Source: a virus. Taken from it: 29,316 bases of DNA. Location of the stretch: IMG/VR virus record IMGVR_UViG_3300046028_003087, positions 1 to 29,316 of that record. One strand, 5' to 3'. Positions 5,601-24,314 of the stretch are shown one piece after another. Under the pieces are notes generated by a model that was given only the letters and a program-made list of their open reading frames with translations, was not told the origin of the DNA and searched no databases. A program made the translations under genes and the position numbers. The stretch's first letter is position 1. Every line of letters begins with the position of its first letter.

Positions 5601-5691
5601 AAACATAGGGAATATTATAAGATGGTTAGCAAAACAAAATAGATTCGCACTAATTAGAACATCAAGAAACTTTCAAAGAAAATATCTATGA
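5590..5691 (+). CDS. 33-residue basic protein
   Basis: ATG at 5590 lies inside the end of the previous gene, and the TGA at 5689-5691 overlaps the ATG of the next gene. The product starts MSNKN like its neighbour, because the first 17 bases are a copy of the neighbour's start, and is rich in Arg and Lys with an amphipathic helix (NIIRWLAKQNRF). It could be a remnant of a duplicated gene start or a real small basic protein. Function unknown. Confidence 0.5.
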   Translation: MSNKNIGNIIRWLAKQNRFALIRTSRNFQRKYL

Positions 5692-5870
5692 AAAATAAAT
5701 TAATCTTAGCACTAATCTGCTTTTTTTTTGGATGCGGGAAAGACCTTAATAAAAAAATAGTCAAAGACTCAGAAGGAAATTATTATGAGTTAGAAAATGT
5801 CTGCGGAGATGCTTATAAGTTAAGGTCGATTGATATAAAACAATTAGAAAAATTAGAAAAAATCAAATGA
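5688..5870 (+). CDS. Small lipoprotein
   Basis: 60 residues. Lys-rich start, a hydrophobic stretch (5-15) and a Cys at 16 (FFFGC) form a lipoprotein signal of the loose kind common in Bacteroidetes. The mature part is about 45 residues with a DSEGNYYELEN string and a charged C-terminal helix. The stop overlaps the next start (ATGA), and the next gene also encodes a lipoprotein, so the pair may act together at the outer membrane, in lysis or in exclusion of other phages. Neither role is proved by sequence. Confidence 0.65.
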   Translation: MKNKLILALICFFFGCGKDLNKKIVKDSEGNYYELENVCGDAYKLRSIDIKQLEKLEKIK

Positions 5871-10284: not shown

Positions 10285-10377
10285 TTATGATGGGGTGAAG
10301 ACCGTCAATTAAATAACAAGATACTTGCCACGCCTTTAGAGATTGCTTCACCAACTCTATCGGTTGTGGCTTTTTTT
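10285..10377 (+). ncRNA. Structured leader or small RNA ending in a terminator
   Basis: About 93 bases between the promoter and the T run hold no convincing gene, only a mini-frame ATG ATG GGG TGA at 10287. GGTGAAG (10294-10300) is perfectly complementary to CTTCACC (10346-10352), which lies in the middle of the 13-base loop of the terminator hairpin. The RNA can therefore form either a pseudoknot with the terminator or an alternative pairing. It could be a free small RNA or an attenuator for the operon that starts at 10388. The 5' end is approximate. Confidence 0.55.
10327..10377 (+). terminator. Intrinsic terminator before the helicase operon
   Basis: GCCAC (10327-10331) pairs with GTGGC (10366-10370), continued inward by CC/GG and, after a small internal loop, TAGAG (10337-10341) with CTCTA (10355-10359). 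Seven T follow at 10371-10377. No promoter box lies between this site and the ATG at 10388, so downstream genes need readthrough. Confidence 0.75.
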
Positions 10378-10387
10378 ATACAACAAA

Positions 10388-11761
10388 ATGAACAAACAAT
10401 ATTTAGAATTTATCGAAAACAAAAAACATTCGATTGGGGACTTTGGATTTAAGGCAAATTACATTCCTGACATTGCCTTTGACTTTCAAAAGTTTATCAT
10501 TGAAAAATCAATTAAAAAGGGGCGCATTGCGGTCTTCGCTGACACTGGATTAGGCAAAACACTTATTCAGTTATCTATTGCAAAAAACATCATTCAGCAC
10601 ACTAATAAGAAAGTTTTAATACTTACCCCTTTAGCAGTTGCATTCCAATTTATTTTAGAAGCTGAGAAATTGGGTATAGATGACATTGAATATTCAAAGG
10701 ACGGGAAACATACTAAGAAGATAGTAATTTGCAATTACGAGCGTTTACATTATTTTAATGAAAATGATTTTGTAGGGGTTATTTTAGACGAGAGTTCAAT
10801 ACTTAAAAACTTTGACGGCAAAATAAAATCAGCAGTTACCTCATTTGTTAAAAAGATCCCTTATAGATTTTTAAGTACTGCAACTCCAAGCCCTAATGAT
10901 TTTATAGAATTAGGGACGAGTTCAGAAGCTTTGGGATATATGGGGTATATGGATATGCTTGGTAAGTTTTTTAAAAATAATCAAAACTCAGTAGATTCAA
11001 ATAATAGGAATATTGGCGAAAAGTTTTATTTAAAACCACACGCAGAAAAGGACTTTTTTGCTTGGGTTAATCAATGGGCTATTATGTGTAAAATGCCAAG
11101 TGATTTAGGATTCTCAAACGATAGGTATAATTTGCCTGAATTGATAGTAAATAGACACATTGTAAAAAACCAAAGTTTAATAGATATTAACGGGCAAGTT
11201 CAAATGTTTACACCTATCGCTAAGTCAATGACCGAAGTAAGACATGAGCAAAAACAAACCGAAGAGAAAAGATGTTTTAAGGCTATTGAATTGGCTCAGG
11301 ATAAGACTTCGGTATATTGGTGTAATACAAACAATGAAAGTTCTATTTTAAAGTCCTTAGACAAAGATTCAGTAGAGATAATAGGTAGTCAATCTATTGA
11401 GAAAAAAGAAGAAATACTTTTAGCGTTTGCTAATGGCGAAATCAAAAGACTAATTACTAAAGCAAAAATGACTTCAATGGGTTTAAACTGGCAACATTGT
11501 AATCATTCAGTATTTTTCCCTACATGGAGCTATGAACAATATTACCAAGCTATTAGACGTTTTTGGAGATTCGGGCAAAAAAGCGATGTTACTATTGAAA
11601 TGGTAGTGTCTGATGGGCAAACAAGAGTATTAGAAGCTTTACAACAAAAAACCGAAAAGGCTATACAGTTACATAAAAACTTAACCGAAAACGTAAACAG
11701 AAGTTTCACAAACATTACAAAAGAATTTAACAAAGAAATAATCAAACCAACATTTATTTAA
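10388..11761 (+). CDS. SNF2-type DEAD/DEAH helicase
   Basis: 457 residues from the ATG at 10388; an in-frame ATG at 10343 would place the N-terminus across the terminator and is rejected. Two RecA lobes are visible: Walker A DTGLGKT (52-58), motif II LDES (133-136), motif III-like STATPSPND (163-171), and in lobe 2 the motif VI string QAIRRFWRFGQ (387-397). This is the layout of phage SNF2-like helicases, which move along double-stranded DNA. The methyltransferase gene follows one base later, a pairing seen in many phages. It may act in replication, recombination or protection from host restriction; sequence alone does not decide. Confidence 0.85.
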   Translation: MNKQYLEFIENKKHSIGDFGFKANYIPDIAFDFQKFIIEKSIKKGRIAVFADTGLGKTLIQLSIAKNIIQHTNKKVLILTPLAVAFQFILEAEKLGIDDIEYSKDGKHTKKIVICNYERLHYFNENDFVGVILDESSILKNFDGKIKSAVTSFVKKIPYRFLSTATPSPNDFIELGTSSEALGYMGYMDMLGKFFKNNQNSVDSNNRNIGEKFYLKPHAEKDFFAWVNQWAIMCKMPSDLGFSNDRYNLPELIVNRHIVKNQSLIDINGQVQMFTPIAKSMTEVRHEQKQTEEKRCFKAIELAQDKTSVYWCNTNNESSILKSLDKDSVEIIGSQSIEKKEEILLAFANGEIKRLITKAKMTSMGLNWQHCNHSVFFPTWSYEQYYQAIRRFWRFGQKSDVTIEMVVSDGQTRVLEALQQKTEKAIQLHKNLTENVNRSFTNITKEFNKEIIKPTFI

Positions 11762-16048: not shown

Positions 16049-16565
16049 GAAGTTCAACATACAACTATGTGAGTTTAACGACTCAAAGATTTTTAACGAT
16101 TATTGTAAAAAGTACGGGCATAGCGACCACCAAGAATTAAAGAGCGAAGTCTTAACAATCCTTTTGGAACTGCCTCAACACAAAAAGGACACAATAGCTG
16201 AGAATAACTATTTAACTCCTTACGCTTTGCAGATTCTAAAATTCCAAGTATCACATTGTAATTGGACTGCGTTTCGCAAGAAGTTTGGCAATAGAGAGAA
16301 TTTAGTTTTAGTAGATACCTTTGAGGATATTGAGGACATTGAATATTTTGAAGATGAAATACACGTTGAGAAGATTGTAGCGAAGATTGAAGAGGATATG
16401 CTCGATCAAAACAATAAATATTTTTATCATTCAAGATTATTAAACGAACTTATTATCACTGGAGTAAACACCAAACAACTAAGCAGAGACATTGGAATCC
16501 CTTATACCTCAGTCCGTCACGCAATAAAAGAATATAGATTACACCTTAAAGAATGGTTAAAATAA
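16041..16565 (+). CDS. Sigma-factor-like transcription regulator (TTG start)
   Basis: 174 residues. No ATG fits the N-terminus, and the frame opens with TTG at 16041 inside the end of the previous gene. The N-terminal half (about 28-85: DHQELKSEVLTILLELP, then YLTPYALQILKFQV) resembles sigma region 2, and the C-terminus has a clear helix-turn-helix (about 143-166: TKQLSRDIGIPYTSVRHAIKEY) like region 4. A strongly acidic linker (DTFEDIEDIEYFEDE) joins them. Phages of this type probably use such proteins to redirect host RNA polymerase to middle or late promoters. Divergence is high, so a general HTH regulator is the alternative. Confidence 0.6.
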   Translation: MSEKFNIQLCEFNDSKIFNDYCKKYGHSDHQELKSEVLTILLELPQHKKDTIAENNYLTPYALQILKFQVSHCNWTAFRKKFGNRENLVLVDTFEDIEDIEYFEDEIHVEKIVAKIEEDMLDQNNKYFYHSRLLNELIITGVNTKQLSRDIGIPYTSVRHAIKEYRLHLKEWLK

Positions 16566-17599
16566 TATACATTAACGAAAAGGATTCGGGGATAGGCTAC
16601 CATAGATTGCAAGTTCCATTTGCGAACATGGATGAGGACTATAAGGACTTAGACATCAAAGGGACTAATGGGTTTACTTTAGACTTCCATCCTCGCCAAT
16701 TTGATATAGTAGTTTTGAATAGGCTCTACAAGCATGACGAGGACTATCTTTTAAAGGCAAAGGATAGTGGTTGTAAAATCATTTTAGACATTGACGATTG
16801 GATTCAGTTGCCAGGATATCATCACCGTGACGGGGTTAAGGACTCTATTGTAGAGCAAAGAATACTTGATGCTATAAGTTATGCTGATGTCATTTGGACT
16901 GCCTCAGAGTTTCTTAAAGAGTGTTTAAAAGACTATCATTCAAATATTGTTTACATACCTAACGGCATTGACTTTAAACAACCGCAATTTATCCCACAAA
17001 GAAACAAGCAAGAAAAATATACCATTGGTTGGATAGGGGCGAATAACCACCAATTAGATATAAGGAAATTGATTGAACCATTTAAGAAACTTCTTAAGAA
17101 CAAGAATCATAAACTTATTTTTGGTGGTTATGTCCACATCCCCGAAGAGGATAGGCAATTCCCTAAATCCCCAAGTTATTATGAAATCATAGAATCTTAC
17201 TTTACTTCAAATTCTCAAAGGCCACCTGACCAATACCAAAGGATTGAATGGATGGACATTATGAACTATGCTTTAATGTACAATTTAATGGACTGCGCCC
17301 TTGCTCCTTTAAACTCTGACAAGTTCAGTTTATGTAAATCAAACATTAAGGTACTGGAGGCAGGTGCGTTCTCATTACCGATTATTTGCAGTAACGTAGC
17401 ACCATACAAAGAGTTTATTGAACAAGGCTTAGTCTTGACACCTAAAGGGGATTGGGACGGGACAATGAAGTCTTTAATCAGCAACCCGATAAAAGGTATT
17501 CAATTAGGGGCAAAGCTTCACGAATACGTCAAAGAGAATTACAATATTAAAACAGTTAATAAAAAAAGATATGATAGTATTATCAGCCTTATGGCTTAG
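16553..17599 (+). CDS. GT-B fold glycosyltransferase (GT4-like)
   Basis: 348 residues. The N-terminal lobe starts with a strand and the loop DSGIGYHRLQVP; DIDDW (79-83), IPNGID (135-140) and IGWIGANNH (158-166) mark the lobe junction. In the C-terminal lobe, KVLEAGAFSLPIICS (266-280) is the nucleotide-sugar-binding helix of GT4 enzymes, with Glu269 as the expected ribose-binding residue. It would transfer a sugar from a nucleotide donor. Acceptor unknown: host surface glycan, virion protein or DNA are all possible. It starts 13 bases inside the sigma-like gene and leads a sugar/methyl modification cassette. Confidence 0.85.
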   Translation: MVKIIYINEKDSGIGYHRLQVPFANMDEDYKDLDIKGTNGFTLDFHPRQFDIVVLNRLYKHDEDYLLKAKDSGCKIILDIDDWIQLPGYHHRDGVKDSIVEQRILDAISYADVIWTASEFLKECLKDYHSNIVYIPNGIDFKQPQFIPQRNKQEKYTIGWIGANNHQLDIRKLIEPFKKLLKNKNHKLIFGGYVHIPEEDRQFPKSPSYYEIIESYFTSNSQRPPDQYQRIEWMDIMNYALMYNLMDCALAPLNSDKFSLCKSNIKVLEAGAFSLPIICSNVAPYKEFIEQGLVLTPKGDWDGTMKSLISNPIKGIQLGAKLHEYVKENYNIKTVNKKRYDSIISLMA

Positions 17600-17801
17600 C
17601 GGATTTGCATTCGCTCTGCATGAATTTTTCCAATTTTTAATCAGTAAGTTTCCGAATAGAAAACTAAAGAAACCATTTTCTTGCGTCACGTGTCTTTCAT
17701 TTTGGATCGGGTTGATAGCTTCAATAGTTATGTTAGACCCTTATTTAATCTTTTTACCTTTCGTGTTTACAAAAATAATCAATAGGTATTTATGGAGTTG
17801 A
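17571..17801 (+). CDS. Small membrane protein with CVTCLSFW motif
   Basis: 76 residues with hydrophobic segments at about 3-22 and 40-66 and a basic loop between them. The motif PFSCVTCLSFWIGL (35-48) is the CxxC-x-x-FW signature of a small integral-membrane family (DUF1360-like by memory). It begins 29 bases inside the glycosyltransferase gene. It might anchor the modification enzymes, but no function is known. Confidence 0.6.
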   Translation: MIVLSALWLSGFAFALHEFFQFLISKFPNRKLKKPFSCVTCLSFWIGLIASIVMLDPYLIFLPFVFTKIINRYLWS

Positions 17802-18031
17802 GCAAAATGCAATACGAGTTAATAGTTGATTCTATAAGTCGCTATCGTTTGACAATGGAGCATCGTTTCATGGTCTACACGGACGAGGACATACATAAAG
17901 CAAATGTATTAAGAAAGGATTTAGGGATAGCAGGAGAACCAGTTTGTATGTCTTGCGATGGCTTAGCATACTCTGAGGCTTTATTTGGAGCGTTAAATAA
18001 ATTAGTAATTAAATATGAGCAAATACATTAA
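17792..18031 (+). CDS. Small protein of unknown function (79 aa)
   Basis: 79 residues, helical, with a CMSC pair at about 52-55. It overlaps both neighbours (10 and 17 bases), in line with tight coupling in the cassette. No family recognised. Confidence 0.55.
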   Translation: MELSKMQYELIVDSISRYRLTMEHRFMVYTDEDIHKANVLRKDLGIAGEPVCMSCDGLAYSEALFGALNKLVIKYEQIH

Positions 18032-18788
18032 AGTAAATCATTCAGGGAATGCAGGTGACCTCATCTATTCCCTATCAAGTCTTTACCAATATTGTCAAGA
18101 CAATGACTGCAAAGTAGTTTACTACATTAAAATCGGTGTGCCAAGTGGATTTACGGATGAAACGCATCCCGTCGGTTCGGTAATGATGAATGATGCGATG
18201 TACAATTTTATTGCCCCATTGCTAAAGGCTCAACCATACATACATGATGTTATCAAATTAGCCAAAGGAGAGAACATGGTTGTAGATTATGACTTGGATT
18301 TATTTAGAAAAGAATACAAGAACTTGTCTGCAGGTAACATTCAAAACTGGATAGCAAACGCTTACCACGAATTTAGACCGAACTTAAGTAAGCAATGTCT
18401 TTTCATCCCTGAGAACATCGGCAACAATTATATCATAGTCAATAGGACTACCCGTTACAATAACTTCTTTATTGATTATTCAGTCTTAGAGAAGTACGAT
18501 AATGTTTACTTTGTAGGCACTGAGAAGGAGTTTAAACGCTTTTCAATCCACAATGATAAGATACAACACTTAAAAGTTTCAAACGCCTTAGAGTTAGCCG
18601 TAGCGATTAATGGTTGCAAGTTATTTATTGGAGGTCAGAGTTTAGCGTTTAGCATTGCAGAACAATTAAAAGTTAAACGAGTTTTAGAACAATACGTCTA
18701 CGCACCGAATGTAATTCCTCAAGGTGGCGAGTGGTTTACCTTTCACACCAACGAACAATTTAAAAACATTTTAGATAAAATATTATGA
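18015..18788 (+). CDS. Putative glycosyltransferase (GT9/heptosyltransferase-like)
   Basis: 257 residues. The N-terminus KVNHSGNAGDLIYSLSSLY (6-24) matches the first strand and loop of GT-B enzymes of the heptosyltransferase sort (the GD-x-x-x-x-L pattern), and the C-terminal LFIGGQSLAFSIAEQLKVKRVLE (about 206-228) corresponds to the donor-binding strand and helix where GT9 enzymes have G-x-x-S-G. Shorter than typical GT9. It follows another glycosyltransferase and precedes two methyltransferases, so the set could build and cap a sugar group. Substrate unknown. Confidence 0.65.
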   Translation: MSKYIKVNHSGNAGDLIYSLSSLYQYCQDNDCKVVYYIKIGVPSGFTDETHPVGSVMMNDAMYNFIAPLLKAQPYIHDVIKLAKGENMVVDYDLDLFRKEYKNLSAGNIQNWIANAYHEFRPNLSKQCLFIPENIGNNYIIVNRTTRYNNFFIDYSVLEKYDNVYFVGTEKEFKRFSIHNDKIQHLKVSNALELAVAINGCKLFIGGQSLAFSIAEQLKVKRVLEQYVYAPNVIPQGGEWFTFHTNEQFKNILDKIL

Positions 18789-19432
18789 TTGAAGAATACG
18801 AAAAAATAGGGAACAGTTACAAGAGCAAAGTCTTTGGCAACCCTCAAGACATTTACACTGATAACTATTGGTCGACACCGATAAGGTCATCCATTGACGA
18901 ACAAGTGTCTAATGTTGTAGACAAGAATAGGCTTGTTATTGAAAACTTAACACACATACATCCTAAAGTAAATTTAGAGATTGCGTGTTCTCCTGGTGTA
19001 TTGTTAGGCGAAATGGAAAATGATTTTGTATGTTTAGGAATAGAAGTTGATGAAAAGTACAAACAACAAATTGAAAAGTATTCTAAGACTGCAAAGCTAA
19101 TGTTTGGGTTTTTCCCAGAAATAACTAAAAACTTAGTACCAAATAAATTTAGCAACATAATCGCATTAGATGTATTTGAACACATAGAGGATAGTCAAGG
19201 CTTTTTAGAGGAGTGCAATCGTTTAATGGTAACGGGTGGACACTTAATAATTCAAAGTCCTATAATTTTGGAAGACGGCCAAATGGATGACAAGATGTTC
19301 AACGGCTTAGAACATATTTGGATATACGGCATCGAAGATTTAAAAGACCTATTACTTAAAAACGGTTTTGAAGTTTTGAAAGTAGATAGGCACAAAGTTG
19401 GTCACGAACAAATTGTAGCTAAAAAACTATAA
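18785..19432 (+). CDS. Class I SAM-dependent methyltransferase
   Basis: 215 residues. Motif I is LEIACSPGV (64-72), a variant of E-x-G-x-G-x-G; the acidic strand end is GIEVDE (85-90); motif IV region IALDVFEHIED (126-136) and GGHLIIQSP (151-159) are typical of the Methyltransf_11/23 group that caps sugars and small molecules. The overlap with the preceding glycosyltransferase (ATGA) suggests its substrate is the sugar product. Confidence 0.8.
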   Translation: MIEEYEKIGNSYKSKVFGNPQDIYTDNYWSTPIRSSIDEQVSNVVDKNRLVIENLTHIHPKVNLEIACSPGVLLGEMENDFVCLGIEVDEKYKQQIEKYSKTAKLMFGFFPEITKNLVPNKFSNIIALDVFEHIEDSQGFLEECNRLMVTGGHLIIQSPIILEDGQMDDKMFNGLEHIWIYGIEDLKDLLLKNGFEVLKVDRHKVGHEQIVAKKL

Positions 19433-19434
19433 TC

Positions 19435-19998
19435 ATGGCTGAAACATCTAAAAGTAAACCACGCAGAGAAGCAAACGGATTCTTTGACAAATATGTTCAA
19501 GGCAAAGTAATTGACATCGGAGTTGGTCGAATAGACACACACGATGGAGCTGATGCCTTAACGGATTGGTGCGACACTTGGGATAAAGATAACGGCAACG
19601 CAGAACTAATGGAGTCAGTCCCCGACAATACCTATGACTTAGTTTACAATTCTCACTTACTTGAACACCTTGACCGCCCTGAGTTAGCGATAATGAATTG
19701 GATGCGAATCACTAAGCCTAACGGGTATTTAATTATAGCAGTACCTCATAGAGATTTGTATGAACGTAAAATAAAGATGCCGAGCAAATGGAATAAAGAC
19801 CACAAATTCTTTATCCTACCTGACACCGAAGACCTACCTGACACCCGAAGTTTAAAACACCTTATTGAAGTTGGTTGCAGGAATTTTAACTATAAAATAA
19901 TCAGCATTGAAACCAATGACACCTCCGATAATAAGGGTGAACCCGAAGAACACGGTAACGGTGAATATCAGATTGAGGCAATTATTCAGAAATTATAA
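19435..19998 (+). CDS. Second class I SAM-dependent methyltransferase
   Basis: 187 residues. Motif I VIDIGVG (25-31), the strand DLVYNSHLLEHL (68-79) and NGYLIIAVPH (96-105) show the fold; this is again the Methyltransf_11 type. Shorter and only distantly like the preceding enzyme, so not a recent copy. It starts two bases after it. Acceptor unknown, but it most likely works on the same modified product. Confidence 0.8.
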   Translation: MAETSKSKPRREANGFFDKYVQGKVIDIGVGRIDTHDGADALTDWCDTWDKDNGNAELMESVPDNTYDLVYNSHLLEHLDRPELAIMNWMRITKPNGYLIIAVPHRDLYERKIKMPSKWNKDHKFFILPDTEDLPDTRSLKHLIEVGCRNFNYKIISIETNDTSDNKGEPEEHGNGEYQIEAIIQKL

Positions 19999-21401: not shown

Positions 21402-21827
21402 ATGGCAGGACATCCAAGAAACTTCGAAACACCTCAAGACCTATGGGCAGAGTTTTGTGCTTATGCAGAAGATACTAAGAACAAACCAAGATACAAGACT
21501 CAATTTGTAGGGAGAGAAGGAGACATGGTTAAAGAACCTTTAGAGAGACCTTTAACTATTGAAGGGTTTAAAAATTGGTGCTACGATAAAATAGGAGTAG
21601 TGGAACAATATTTAACTAATCAAGACGGTTTGTATAAAGAATACATTGGTATCTCTACACGTATACGAGAGTCAATCAGACAAGACCAAATAGAAGGCGG
21701 TATGGTTGGACAGTATAACCATTCAATAACTGCAAGGCTAAATGGTTTAGTAGATAAGACCGATAATAAGAATGAAACATCAGGCGAGATAATAGTTAAG
21801 TATGCCGACGGAGTTAATCCTGCATAA
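21402..21827 (+). CDS. terS: Terminase small subunit
   Basis: 141 residues. The N-terminus (GHPRNFETPQDLWAEFCAYAE) and the central PLTIEGFKNWCYDK string are those of Bacteroidetes phage DNA-packaging small subunits; the helices at 55-120 would form the ring, and the end ADGVNPA would contact the large subunit. It recognises the packaging site and brings DNA to TerL. The gene overlaps terL by 26 bases, the usual arrangement. Confidence 0.8.
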   Translation: MAGHPRNFETPQDLWAEFCAYAEDTKNKPRYKTQFVGREGDMVKEPLERPLTIEGFKNWCYDKIGVVEQYLTNQDGLYKEYIGISTRIRESIRQDQIEGGMVGQYNHSITARLNGLVDKTDNKNETSGEIIVKYADGVNPA

Positions 21828-22962
21828 GCCACATCAGGCACAACAAGAGATTTTAAACTGCGATAAACGATTCATTGTTTTATTGTGTGGGAGGAGGTTT
21901 GGCAAGTCTTTAATAAGTAGCCAAATTTCAATCCTTAATATAATGGCTCAAAAAAGAGTAGCCTACATTACACCGACCTATCAATTAGCATCGGTGTTTT
22001 TCGATGAGATAGTAAAGTTAGGGGGTTCGATATTCAAAACAAACCGAACCGAACTGACTATTAAATTCAACAATGGAGAGTTAAGGTTTTTCACTGGCGA
22101 GAACATAAACTCATTAAGAGGGCATAAGTTTCACATGGTTATAGTAGATGAGGCTTCATACGTCAAAGACTTAAAGGAAGCATGGGAGAGAGTTATAAGG
22201 GCAACACTAACGGATTATTCAGGCAAAGCTTTATTCGTTTCTACCCCGAGAGGGTTTGATTACTTCTTTTCACTTACTCAAAATGCAGGTGACGATTGGA
22301 AGACCTTTAAGTTTACCACATACGATAACCCATTCATCCCAGTGTCAGAGATTGAAGAGGCAAAACAAATGCTACCTAACGCAGTCTTTGAGCAAGAATA
22401 CATGGCCAACCCAATGCAGAACGCTGACAATCCATTTGGTTCTGACGCTATAAGAAACTGCATCCAACCATTAAGCATTAAACCTGCAAAGTTCTTTGGA
22501 ATAGATTTAGCGAAGTCTTATGACTATACGGTTATAATTGGTTTAGATCAAGACGGGAATGTCGCACACTTTGAACGCTTCCAAAAGTCATGGCAACACA
22601 CAAAGGATACTTTATTACAACTAAGCAGAAACACAGTAGGGTATGCCGATAGTACGGGAGTGGGCGACCCGATTATTGAGGAGATAAGTTTAAGCATTCC
22701 AAACATTCAAGGTTTTAAATTTACCTCTCAAAGTAAGCAACAATTAATGGAGGGGATAGTGAGTGCAATTCATCAAGGGTTAATAGGCTATCCAAAGGGA
22801 ACGATAACCGATGAGTTAGAAGTGTTTGAATACAAGTTCACTTCAACGGGCGTGAGATACTCAGCAAGGGACGGCTTCCATGATGACTGCGTTATGGCTC
22901 TTGCACTAGCATACAAATCATTTAAAGAAAACAAATCAATAGGCACATATCGAATACGATGA
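21802..22962 (+). CDS. terL: Terminase large subunit
   Basis: 386 residues. ATPase: Walker A CGRRFGKS (29-36), Walker B MVIVDEAS (112-119), coupling motif STPRG (147-151). Nuclease of the RNase H type: Asp235 in FGIDLA, Asp283 in YADSTGVGD and Asp361/362 in HDDCVMALA. It drives DNA into the head and cuts it. Somewhat short for TerL but with all key residues. The start overlaps terS, and the stop overlaps the next ATG. Confidence 0.95.
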   Translation: MPTELILHKPHQAQQEILNCDKRFIVLLCGRRFGKSLISSQISILNIMAQKRVAYITPTYQLASVFFDEIVKLGGSIFKTNRTELTIKFNNGELRFFTGENINSLRGHKFHMVIVDEASYVKDLKEAWERVIRATLTDYSGKALFVSTPRGFDYFFSLTQNAGDDWKTFKFTTYDNPFIPVSEIEEAKQMLPNAVFEQEYMANPMQNADNPFGSDAIRNCIQPLSIKPAKFFGIDLAKSYDYTVIIGLDQDGNVAHFERFQKSWQHTKDTLLQLSRNTVGYADSTGVGDPIIEEISLSIPNIQGFKFTSQSKQQLMEGIVSAIHQGLIGYPKGTITDELEVFEYKFTSTGVRYSARDGFHDDCVMALALAYKSFKENKSIGTYRIR

Positions 22963-23585
22963 ATATTAAAACATATCAAGAGTTATACAACGCCATTAAG
23001 TTAGGCGACAACAATGAAATTAGAACGGCATACAATGTCCTTTCGGTTTTAACAGGCAAACCTATTTCAGAATACAAGAGAATGAAATGGACGGACTTCC
23101 TAAAGGAGCAAGAGAGTGTAACCATTCCCGACATTAGTTCATTCCCTGATGCGTGGGTAACGGAGTTTGAAGTTAAGGGAGAAAGGTTCTTTGTGAATCA
23201 ATACTTAACCGATTGGAATACCGAACAGTTTATCTCTATGTCTTCATTGACAAAGGAGAAAGAAGCTATTGTAGACAACTTGCATTTAATCTTAGCGACT
23301 ATGTGCTATAAAGAAAAGGATGAGGATGTTCAGATGACTGAGTTCAATAGACGGGCGGAGTTATTCCAATCCCATTTAGATGTGGATGTCGCTTATCCTA
23401 TCGGGTTTTTTTTTGCACTTCTTTTGGTGAAATTATCGGAGGGTATCCAGTCCTCTTCAACAAAGAAACGGAAGAAGAAGAACAAGAGTCGGATTGGTTC
23501 TCTTCTAAATGGAGTTGGTATGCGACGATTGACAAACTATTTGCGAAAGAAGATAGGTCTAAATTCAACTACTACTTTAAAATGA
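22959..23585 (+). CDS. Frame-0 product of a frameshifted tail-chaperone-like gene
   Basis: 208 residues if read straight. Residues 1-148 look natural: EQFISMSSLTKEKEAI, DNLHLILATMCYKE, and RAELFQSHLDVDVAYPIGFF, a pattern like phage tail assembly chaperones. After the T9 run at 23406-23414 the frame turns into a Lys- and Ser-rich tail (TKKRKKKNKSR...) unlike a real domain. The natural continuation is in the -1 frame, see the longer product. The short form may still be made, as with lambda gpG. The start overlaps terL as ATGA. Confidence 0.7.
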   Translation: MNIKTYQELYNAIKLGDNNEIRTAYNVLSVLTGKPISEYKRMKWTDFLKEQESVTIPDISSFPDAWVTEFEVKGERFFVNQYLTDWNTEQFISMSSLTKEKEAIVDNLHLILATMCYKEKDEDVQMTEFNRRAELFQSHLDVDVAYPIGFFFALLLVKLSEGIQSSSTKKRKKKNKSRIGSLLNGVGMRRLTNYLRKKIGLNSTTTLK

Positions 23586-23653
23586 ACGCTTATGACTTCT
23601 TGAACCATTTATGTTATTTAAAAGACAAAGCTGATAATCAACCAAAGAAATAA
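22959..23653 (+). CDS. -1 frameshift product (231 aa) of the tail-chaperone-like gene
   Basis: Slipping back one base on the T run at 23406-23414 continues the protein, with no stop, to the TAA at 23651-23653. The new part reads GEIIGGYPVLFNKETEEEEQ, then SSKWSWYATIDKLF, KFNYYFKMNAYDFLNHL and CYLKDK: balanced, folded-looking sequence of a kind seen at the C-terminus of Bacteroidetes phage proteins. A tail chaperone with a -1 shift (like lambda G/GT) is the best fit. No tape-measure gene follows, which is unusual. Transcript slippage on the T9 run, or a missing T in the sequence, are alternatives. Confidence 0.7.
23406..23414 (+). other. T9 slippery run (-1 frameshift site)
   Basis: Nine T in a row, placed as TTT TTT TTT in frame 0 after GGG. 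A T-TTT-TTT heptamer lets both tRNAs re-pair after a -1 slip. U9 is also long enough for polymerase slippage. No clear downstream pseudoknot is evident by eye. Confidence 0.7.
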
Positions 23654-23731
23654 ATGTTTTTTAGTTTACATTTCTACACCCAAAGTAAACTAAGTATAGA
23701 ATTAGATTACATTCAAAATGAAAATAAGTGA
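23654..23731 (+). CDS. 25-residue peptide after the frameshift product
   Basis: The ATG at 23654 directly follows the -1 frame stop (TAA-ATG), and the frame ends at TGA 23729-23731, overlapping the next gene by 14 bases. Aromatic start (FFSLHFYTQ) and an acidic end. The junction gives it some support and also favours real translation of the -1 frame. Too short to judge further. Confidence 0.35.
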   Translation: MFFSLHFYTQSKLSIELDYIQNENK

Positions 23732-24314
23732 TGAAATATTAGACAAGTGTGCCGATGTCCTACTTGAGTGGGGCAACGCCAATGCTGAGCAGATGCGAAT
23801 CTTGTTAAGGCAAAGACTAAAGCAAAAACAAACTGAATCTAACTTAGCACAAAGTATCCAAGCGAAGAATCCGACCATCAAAGGTGGGGTTGTTTCAATG
23901 GCTATCGATCTAAATGATTATTGGATGTTTGTGGACTTGGGTGTAAAGGGTTTAGTCAATAAGTCGGCAGTCGGGATACCTACAAAGACATACACGAATA
24001 AAGACTATCCGAATGGGTTTAGTTTTAAAAACATGGGGACACCGCCTCAGATGATTAGTAATTTACAAGACTATATCGCAAGGAAAGGTATTCAAGCCAG
24101 AGTAAGTAAAACTGAAACGGGTAGACAAGTAATTCAAACTTCTTTTCAAATGGCTCAAGCTATGGCCGATGCAATCAAGATGAAAGGTATAGACGGTACA
24201 AGGTTCTATTCAGATACCTTTAACGATGAATCATACAACGAACTAACTAACAAACTAAGTTTGATTATAGGTCAAGAGGTGGAGTTTAGATTAATCACCG
24301 AATTTAAAAGATAA
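23718..24314 (+). CDS. Tail-completion / HK97 gp10-like protein
   Basis: 198 residues. A helical start (ILDKCADVLLEWGNANAEQMRILLRQRL) is followed by beta strands (VVSMAIDLNDYWMFVDLGVKG), a basic loop and KNMGTPPQMI, and a C-terminal section with KGIDGTRFYSDTF. This order, with the YW-x-F-V-D-x-G-x-x-G stretch, recalls HK97 gp10-type proteins that join tail and head. The start overlaps the small gene before it. Family call moderate. Confidence 0.6.
   Translation: MKISDEILDKCADVLLEWGNANAEQMRILLRQRLKQKQTESNLAQSIQAKNPTIKGGVVSMAIDLNDYWMFVDLGVKGLVNKSAVGIPTKTYTNKDYPNGFSFKNMGTPPQMISNLQDYIARKGIQARVSKTETGRQVIQTSFQMAQAMADAIKMKGIDGTRFYSDTFNDESYNELTNKLSLIIGQEVEFRLITEFKR

Follow-up and report, generated by a model that had tools for sequence, protein, structure and literature searches.

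A conserved T9/T10 run at a −1 frame transition in a tail-chaperone-like gene of a largely uncultured tailed-phage clade

Gene organization around the T9 run

The window, that is, the whole 29,316-nt stretch of the virus record IMGVR_UViG_3300046028_003087 analyzed here, carries an uninterrupted run of nine T residues inside the gene that follows the terminase large subunit gene (terL), hereafter called the slip gene (Table 1). The stop codon of terL and the start codon of the slip gene overlap as ATGA, and the run is set in the sequence GGG-T9-GC at positions 23403-23416. The frame-0 ORF, the T9 run and the open −1 frame were all found at the positions given in the original prediction. Read after a −1 shift, or from a transcript one nucleotide longer, the −1 extension stops at 23651-23653, and the fused product of the N-terminal domain and this extension would be 231 aa in length. 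As had been pointed out, an ATG follows this stop codon directly, at 23654, but it opens only about 25 codons, and the next conserved gene starts at 23718.

The window copy of that next gene had no PHROG match. Its homologue in the relative L076 matches phrog_29822 (E = 0.0028), and the P12024L member of phrog_29822 is in turn a weak match to the tail completion/Neck1 family phrog_5. The tape measure gene lies outside the window; in the relatives L044 and L047 it directly follows the homologue of the 1093-aa tail gene. Between the replication genes and the terminase, the window also holds a glycosyltransferase/methyltransferase-like block (16553-19998), which is conserved in L044 and L047.

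Table 1. Features of the window in and around the slip gene.
Feature	Coordinates	Strand	Evidence or remarks
Small terminase-like gene	21402..21827	+	Pfam GP3_package PF16677, E = 1.3e-11
Terminase large subunit (TerL)	21802..22962	+	phrog_2, E = 3e-42; Terminase_6N, E = 7e-12
Frame-0 ORF, 208 aa	22959..23585	+	N-terminal domain and frame-0 tail; putative short, G-like product
T9 run, putative slip site	23406..23414	+	T9/T10 in 212/212 loci
−1 frame extension, T-like domain	23408..23653	+	Conserved C-half alignment; −1 wobble pattern
Frame-0 tail after the run, 56 codons	23415..23585	+	Lys/Ser-rich, poorly conserved
Next gene	23718..24314	+	HK97 gp10/neck-like by position and by similarity to its family
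Structural gene of the module, 409 aa	24715..25944	+	Syntenic in L029, L044, L047 and L076
Tail gene, 1093 aa	25941..29222	+	phrog_38559, E = 2e-9

Conservation of the run among relatives

The protein encoded in the window had no Pfam or PHROG match and no match in INPHARED or PLSDB by tblastn, and no relative was found in the bacterial genomes scanned. A search of IMG/VR with the part of the gene before the run returned 33 close relatives (78-100% identity), all of which have GGG-T9-GC at the same place followed by a conserved −1 ORF, with a frame-0 tail that drifts. Further scans yielded distant relatives at 62% (L073, L074) and 28% (L076) identity. Two isolates, Nonlabens phages P12024L and P12024S, were reached through their large tail protein, and their genes were joined to the window family by profile comparison (hhalign E = 9e-6) and gene order. 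A profile of the distant-relative group, with patterns in the −1 part, matched 546 IMG/VR stretches, and a profile of the N-terminal part alone, upstream of the run, matched 588; the best 80 were kept in each case. Because the search with the −1 part and the search with the N-terminal part alone agree, the presence of the run is not a product of how the relatives were found.

Across 212 loci (211 relatives and the window), the run was T9 in 198 and T10 in 14, never shorter and always uninterrupted, and every locus requires a −1 transition to enter the conserved C-terminal domain; one further locus, which ends at the contig end before the run, is outside this count. The expectation that the T run and both frames would recur in homologues was borne out even at 16% identity, and none of the relatives lacks the shift. 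At a clustering threshold of 85% identity, 91 representatives remained, and their median identity to the window is 21%. N halves and C halves were aligned separately. Invariant F, F, F, W and W columns run through the C-half alignment of the −1 extension.

Homopolymers are error-prone in sequencing and assembly, and the gene could on that account be continuous in reality. We assign this explanation a negligible probability: the run is T9 or T10, and nowhere in frame, in every one of 212 assemblies, which represent many samples, and in two isolates that have been sequenced. Long homopolymers are also mutable, and in DNA-level phase variation the run would change between T9 and T10 within a phage population, switching the long form on and off; but an on-state run is seen in none of the 212 assemblies, and the T10 members lie in other sequence contexts in which the shift is needed as well, which makes phase variation very improbable. 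Both explanations were rejected in view of the agreement of 212 independent copies, not one of them in frame. The frame transition at the T9 run is real and not a sequencing error.

Some close relatives of the slip gene follow a terL of another type than that of the window (10868-12028 in L047, the contig of L024, and 2838-4001 in L074). The junction is kept despite this change, with a G.GTY.IR end and the ATGA overlap, and the change looks like a terminase cassette exchange that ends exactly at the slip gene.

Selection on the two reading frames

Among 23 distinct close relatives, the variable columns before the run peak at the wobble position of frame 0 (49/29/125 by codon position), and those after the run peak at the wobble position of the −1 frame (20/52/25). 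This move of the wobble peak indicates that selection changes frame at the run. When the differences after the run were read in the −1 frame, 3122 were synonymous and 1944 non-synonymous, compared to 811 synonymous and 4787 non-synonymous when the same stretch was read in frame 0. Given the wobble pattern and the mostly synonymous differences, the −1 frame encodes a protein under selection downstream of the run.

The frame-0 tail of the window had been described as degenerate and rich in Lys and Ser. It is indeed Lys/Ser-rich and it drifts in relatives, but most of it is the acidic −1 sequence, with its GAA repeats, read in another frame. Its length, which had been considered odd, proved unremarkable in the window when the −1 frame was randomized synonymously (P = 0.285). 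In a larger marine/freshwater clade the tail is open for 56-70 codons (L152, L175, L190, L197 and L221), longer than the −1 protein would predict (P between 0.0005 and 0.024), and there it may be functional.

Identity of the encoded protein

In near-complete relatives the gene order is TerS, TerL, slip gene, a small gene in most subfamilies, a neck-like gene, a gene of about 400 aa, a gene of about 700-1300 aa, tape measure, protease and major capsid, with the portal and DUF6712 genes at the other end of the contigs. The slip gene is thus upstream of the tape measure gene in the same module and not directly adjacent to it, with two to four genes between them, among which are two or three large structural genes. 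Its place beside the terminase, noted as odd in the original prediction, does depart from the textbook order, although it is the standard order in this clade and still upstream of the tape measure. Neither L044 nor L047 has a small gene directly before the tape measure gene, so the slip gene is the only chaperone candidate seen.

Structure and profile searches gave weak matches. The N half of the homologue L175 was modelled with a pLDDT of 91.6. The model had no fold match among solved structures (PDB), and among predicted viral structures (Foldseek) it matched P12024S and many unnamed phage proteins, with further, weak matches to proteins annotated as tail assembly chaperones (prob 0.69 at best). 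For the −1 half of the window gene, the model reached a pLDDT of 62, too poor for a fold search. In sequence profiles, 2 of 45 family members matched Pfam Phage_TAC_7 (PF10109), which covers chaperones of the P2 E, Mu 41 and HP1 14 type, but these few matches lie below the curated cut-off (best E 0.0045); 6 of the 45 matched the 'tail protein' family phrog_166 (best 5e-5). Flavobacterium phage 6H (L226) also has a fold-search match to the N domain, at 10352-10927 on the minus strand and without T9; it stands a few genes before a putative tail protein gene, and its continuation appears to need frame changes, the frames being broken.

The slip gene resembles the lambda G/GT pair in several respects: a single start with two products, a shift into the −1 frame shortly before the first frame ends, a C-terminal domain that would be present only in a minority form, a position early in the tail module, and the status of the only frame-shifted gene found in that module. 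Unlike G/GT, with which it shares no detectable sequence similarity, it is separated from the tape measure gene by three or more genes and about 5 kb, it has a frame-0 tail of 16-70 codons, and its slip site is a T9/T10 in any codon phase and without RNA structure rather than a 7-base heptamer. In P12024L (genes 40/41) and P12024S (genes 38/39), both of the genus Inhavirus, the homologous gene likewise stands right after TerL with T9 and a −1 extension; it differs from the window gene in having the T9 in another codon phase and in being annotated as two unrelated hypothetical proteins, and its two halves make up phrog_32199 and phrog_38404.

The frame transition could be genuine and yet belong to a protein of another kind, such as a head-completion or connector protein made in two forms, and not to a tail assembly chaperone. 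The gene does adjoin TerL, lies near a neck-like gene and not directly before the tape measure, its chaperone profile matches are weak, and no solved structure resembles the N domain. Against this, the two-frame product, the small size and the place before the tail module match chaperones, no other candidate is present in the module, and, outside the family, the strongest matches with a name are to tail assembly chaperones; we regard a non-chaperone as rather unlikely. Considering its place in the packaging-to-tail module, ahead of the tape measure gene, the lack of another small gene before the tape measure in L044 and L047, and the weak profile and fold matches, we take the slip protein as a probable tail assembly chaperone of the G/GT type, even though its gene does not directly precede the tape measure gene.

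Evidence on the step that slips

A correctly phased U_UUU_UUU heptamer is present at every site, and ordinary −1 ribosomal frameshifting could act on it by slipping of tRNA-Phe pairs, in the manner of other phages' G/GT genes, in which case the nine T residues would come only from the flanking codons. The hydrophobic flanks (V/L/I before the run, and F/L after it in the −1 frame) do force some of the extra T residues. A T-rich shift site is reported for P2-like chaperones, which counts for a ribosomal shift, and the −1 site of P2 is shorter than the T9 run. The known route to tail chaperone pairs is also −1 frameshifting (PMC5009743). However, a ribosomal −1 shift requires only six or seven bases in a single phase (U_UUU_UUN), so T7 or T8 would suffice, yet neither occurs at any of the 212 loci, and the run length is kept through three codon phases. 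The run is in phase 0 at 41 loci, in phase 1 at 161 and in phase 2 at 10 (TTT TTT TTT, NTT TTT TTT T.. and ..T TTT TTT TT., in different subfamilies), and a length of 9-10 in all phases is as expected for a length-dependent, phase-blind mechanism.

A slippery heptamer tolerates A, U or C as its last base (PMC10885494). Where the run is in phase 1 and the −1 codon reads TTA or TTG, a C in place of the eighth T leaves the permitted heptamer U_UUU_UUC and is silent in both frames. This run-breaking substitution, which falls on the wobble base of the second slip codon, is available to 74 of the 91 representatives (less than 85% identical to each other) and is used by none, which speaks against a ribosomal shift on the heptamer. 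From joint codon usage, the chance of seeing no silent C among 74 is about 7e-4, a value for one codon position that treats the representatives as independent, though they are related.

A census of runs was taken over 478 ORFs of at least 100 aa from these phages, comprising 365,541 bases. All 49 runs of nine or more T residues were in the slip gene; synonymous shuffles predict about 16 in total. T7 (28 vs 70) and T8 (8 vs 17) were below the shuffle expectation. In many bacteria, selection against slippage-prone A/T runs is evident from nine nucleotides (Baranov and colleagues, PMC1088944). The only other T9 of the window (5721-5729) is inside a 60-aa lipoprotein-like ORF (5688-5870), below the ORF size of the census, and no relative with this run was found in the contigs checked. 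A T9 also follows a GGGAGGC...GCTTCCC inverted repeat in L041 (4743) and L043 (454), where it is intergenic, near the portal gene, and resembles an ordinary intrinsic terminator.

Stimulators of ribosomal frameshifting were not detected at the site. Six downstream regions folded no better than their shuffles (z from −0.74 to 1.64), giving no sign of a stem-loop or pseudoknot, and no Shine-Dalgarno-like site was evident by eye in seven upstream regions; this speaks against a ribosomal shift, although some such sites need no stimulator. A conserved, unbroken run of about nine or more A or T residues, independence of codon phase and lack of a ribosomal stimulator are features expected of transcriptional slippage, and all were found here. 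Because of the invariant run length, the three phases, the unused silent C, the run census, the lack of structure and the nine-nucleotide threshold, transcriptional slippage appears to fit these sequences better than ribosomal slipping on U_UUU_UUU alone, and we consider the latter an unlikely, though still serious, explanation.

Discussion

The original prediction was a programmed frameshift in the style of the tail chaperones G/GT. Comparison of the homologues supports well a programmed −1 transition in a tail-chaperone-like gene, and a G/GT-like role is probable, but the evidence favors the RNA polymerase over the ribosomal shift that had been implied. We slightly favor an explanation in which two products are made from one start through slippage of RNA polymerase on T9, and in which the pair acts like lambda gpG and gpGT. 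The majority of transcripts would keep U9 and yield the frame-0 protein, composed of the N-terminal domain and a dispensable frame-0 tail. In a fraction of transcripts, the RNA polymerase would slip on T9 and add one U (or lose two), and ordinary translation of these would enter the −1 frame and fuse the N domain to the conserved C-terminal domain. The short form would then coat the tape measure protein, and the long form would bring in the tail-tube subunits.

Transcriptional slippage on A9 or T9, giving alternative C-terminal products at a fixed ratio, is known from Thermus dnaX and from Shigella mxiE and spa13 (PMC1088944, PMC5009743). These genes share with the slip gene a run of nine A or T residues inside the coding sequence, but they are bacterial genes and not phage tail genes. 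The literature searched, which lay mostly outside subscription journals, yielded no tail chaperone gene reported to use transcriptional slippage. What is new here is the breadth and exactness with which T9/T10 is conserved, and its bearing on the mechanism.

The annotation can be repaired in hundreds of contigs and in two isolates, where this gene stands as two hypothetical proteins or without its C-terminal domain. The two known isolates of the clade infect a marine flavobacterium. In tailed phages, ribosomal frameshifting is the known means of setting the ratio between the two chaperone forms. For a large, largely uncultured clade of these phages, we propose that slipping of RNA polymerase on T9/T10 sets it, and judge the chances of this to be even. 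If true, it would provide a natural and very deep set of slippage sites for the study of RNA polymerase, and it would mean that a second molecular machine has arrived at the same ratio, so that selection keeps the ratio and not the mechanism.
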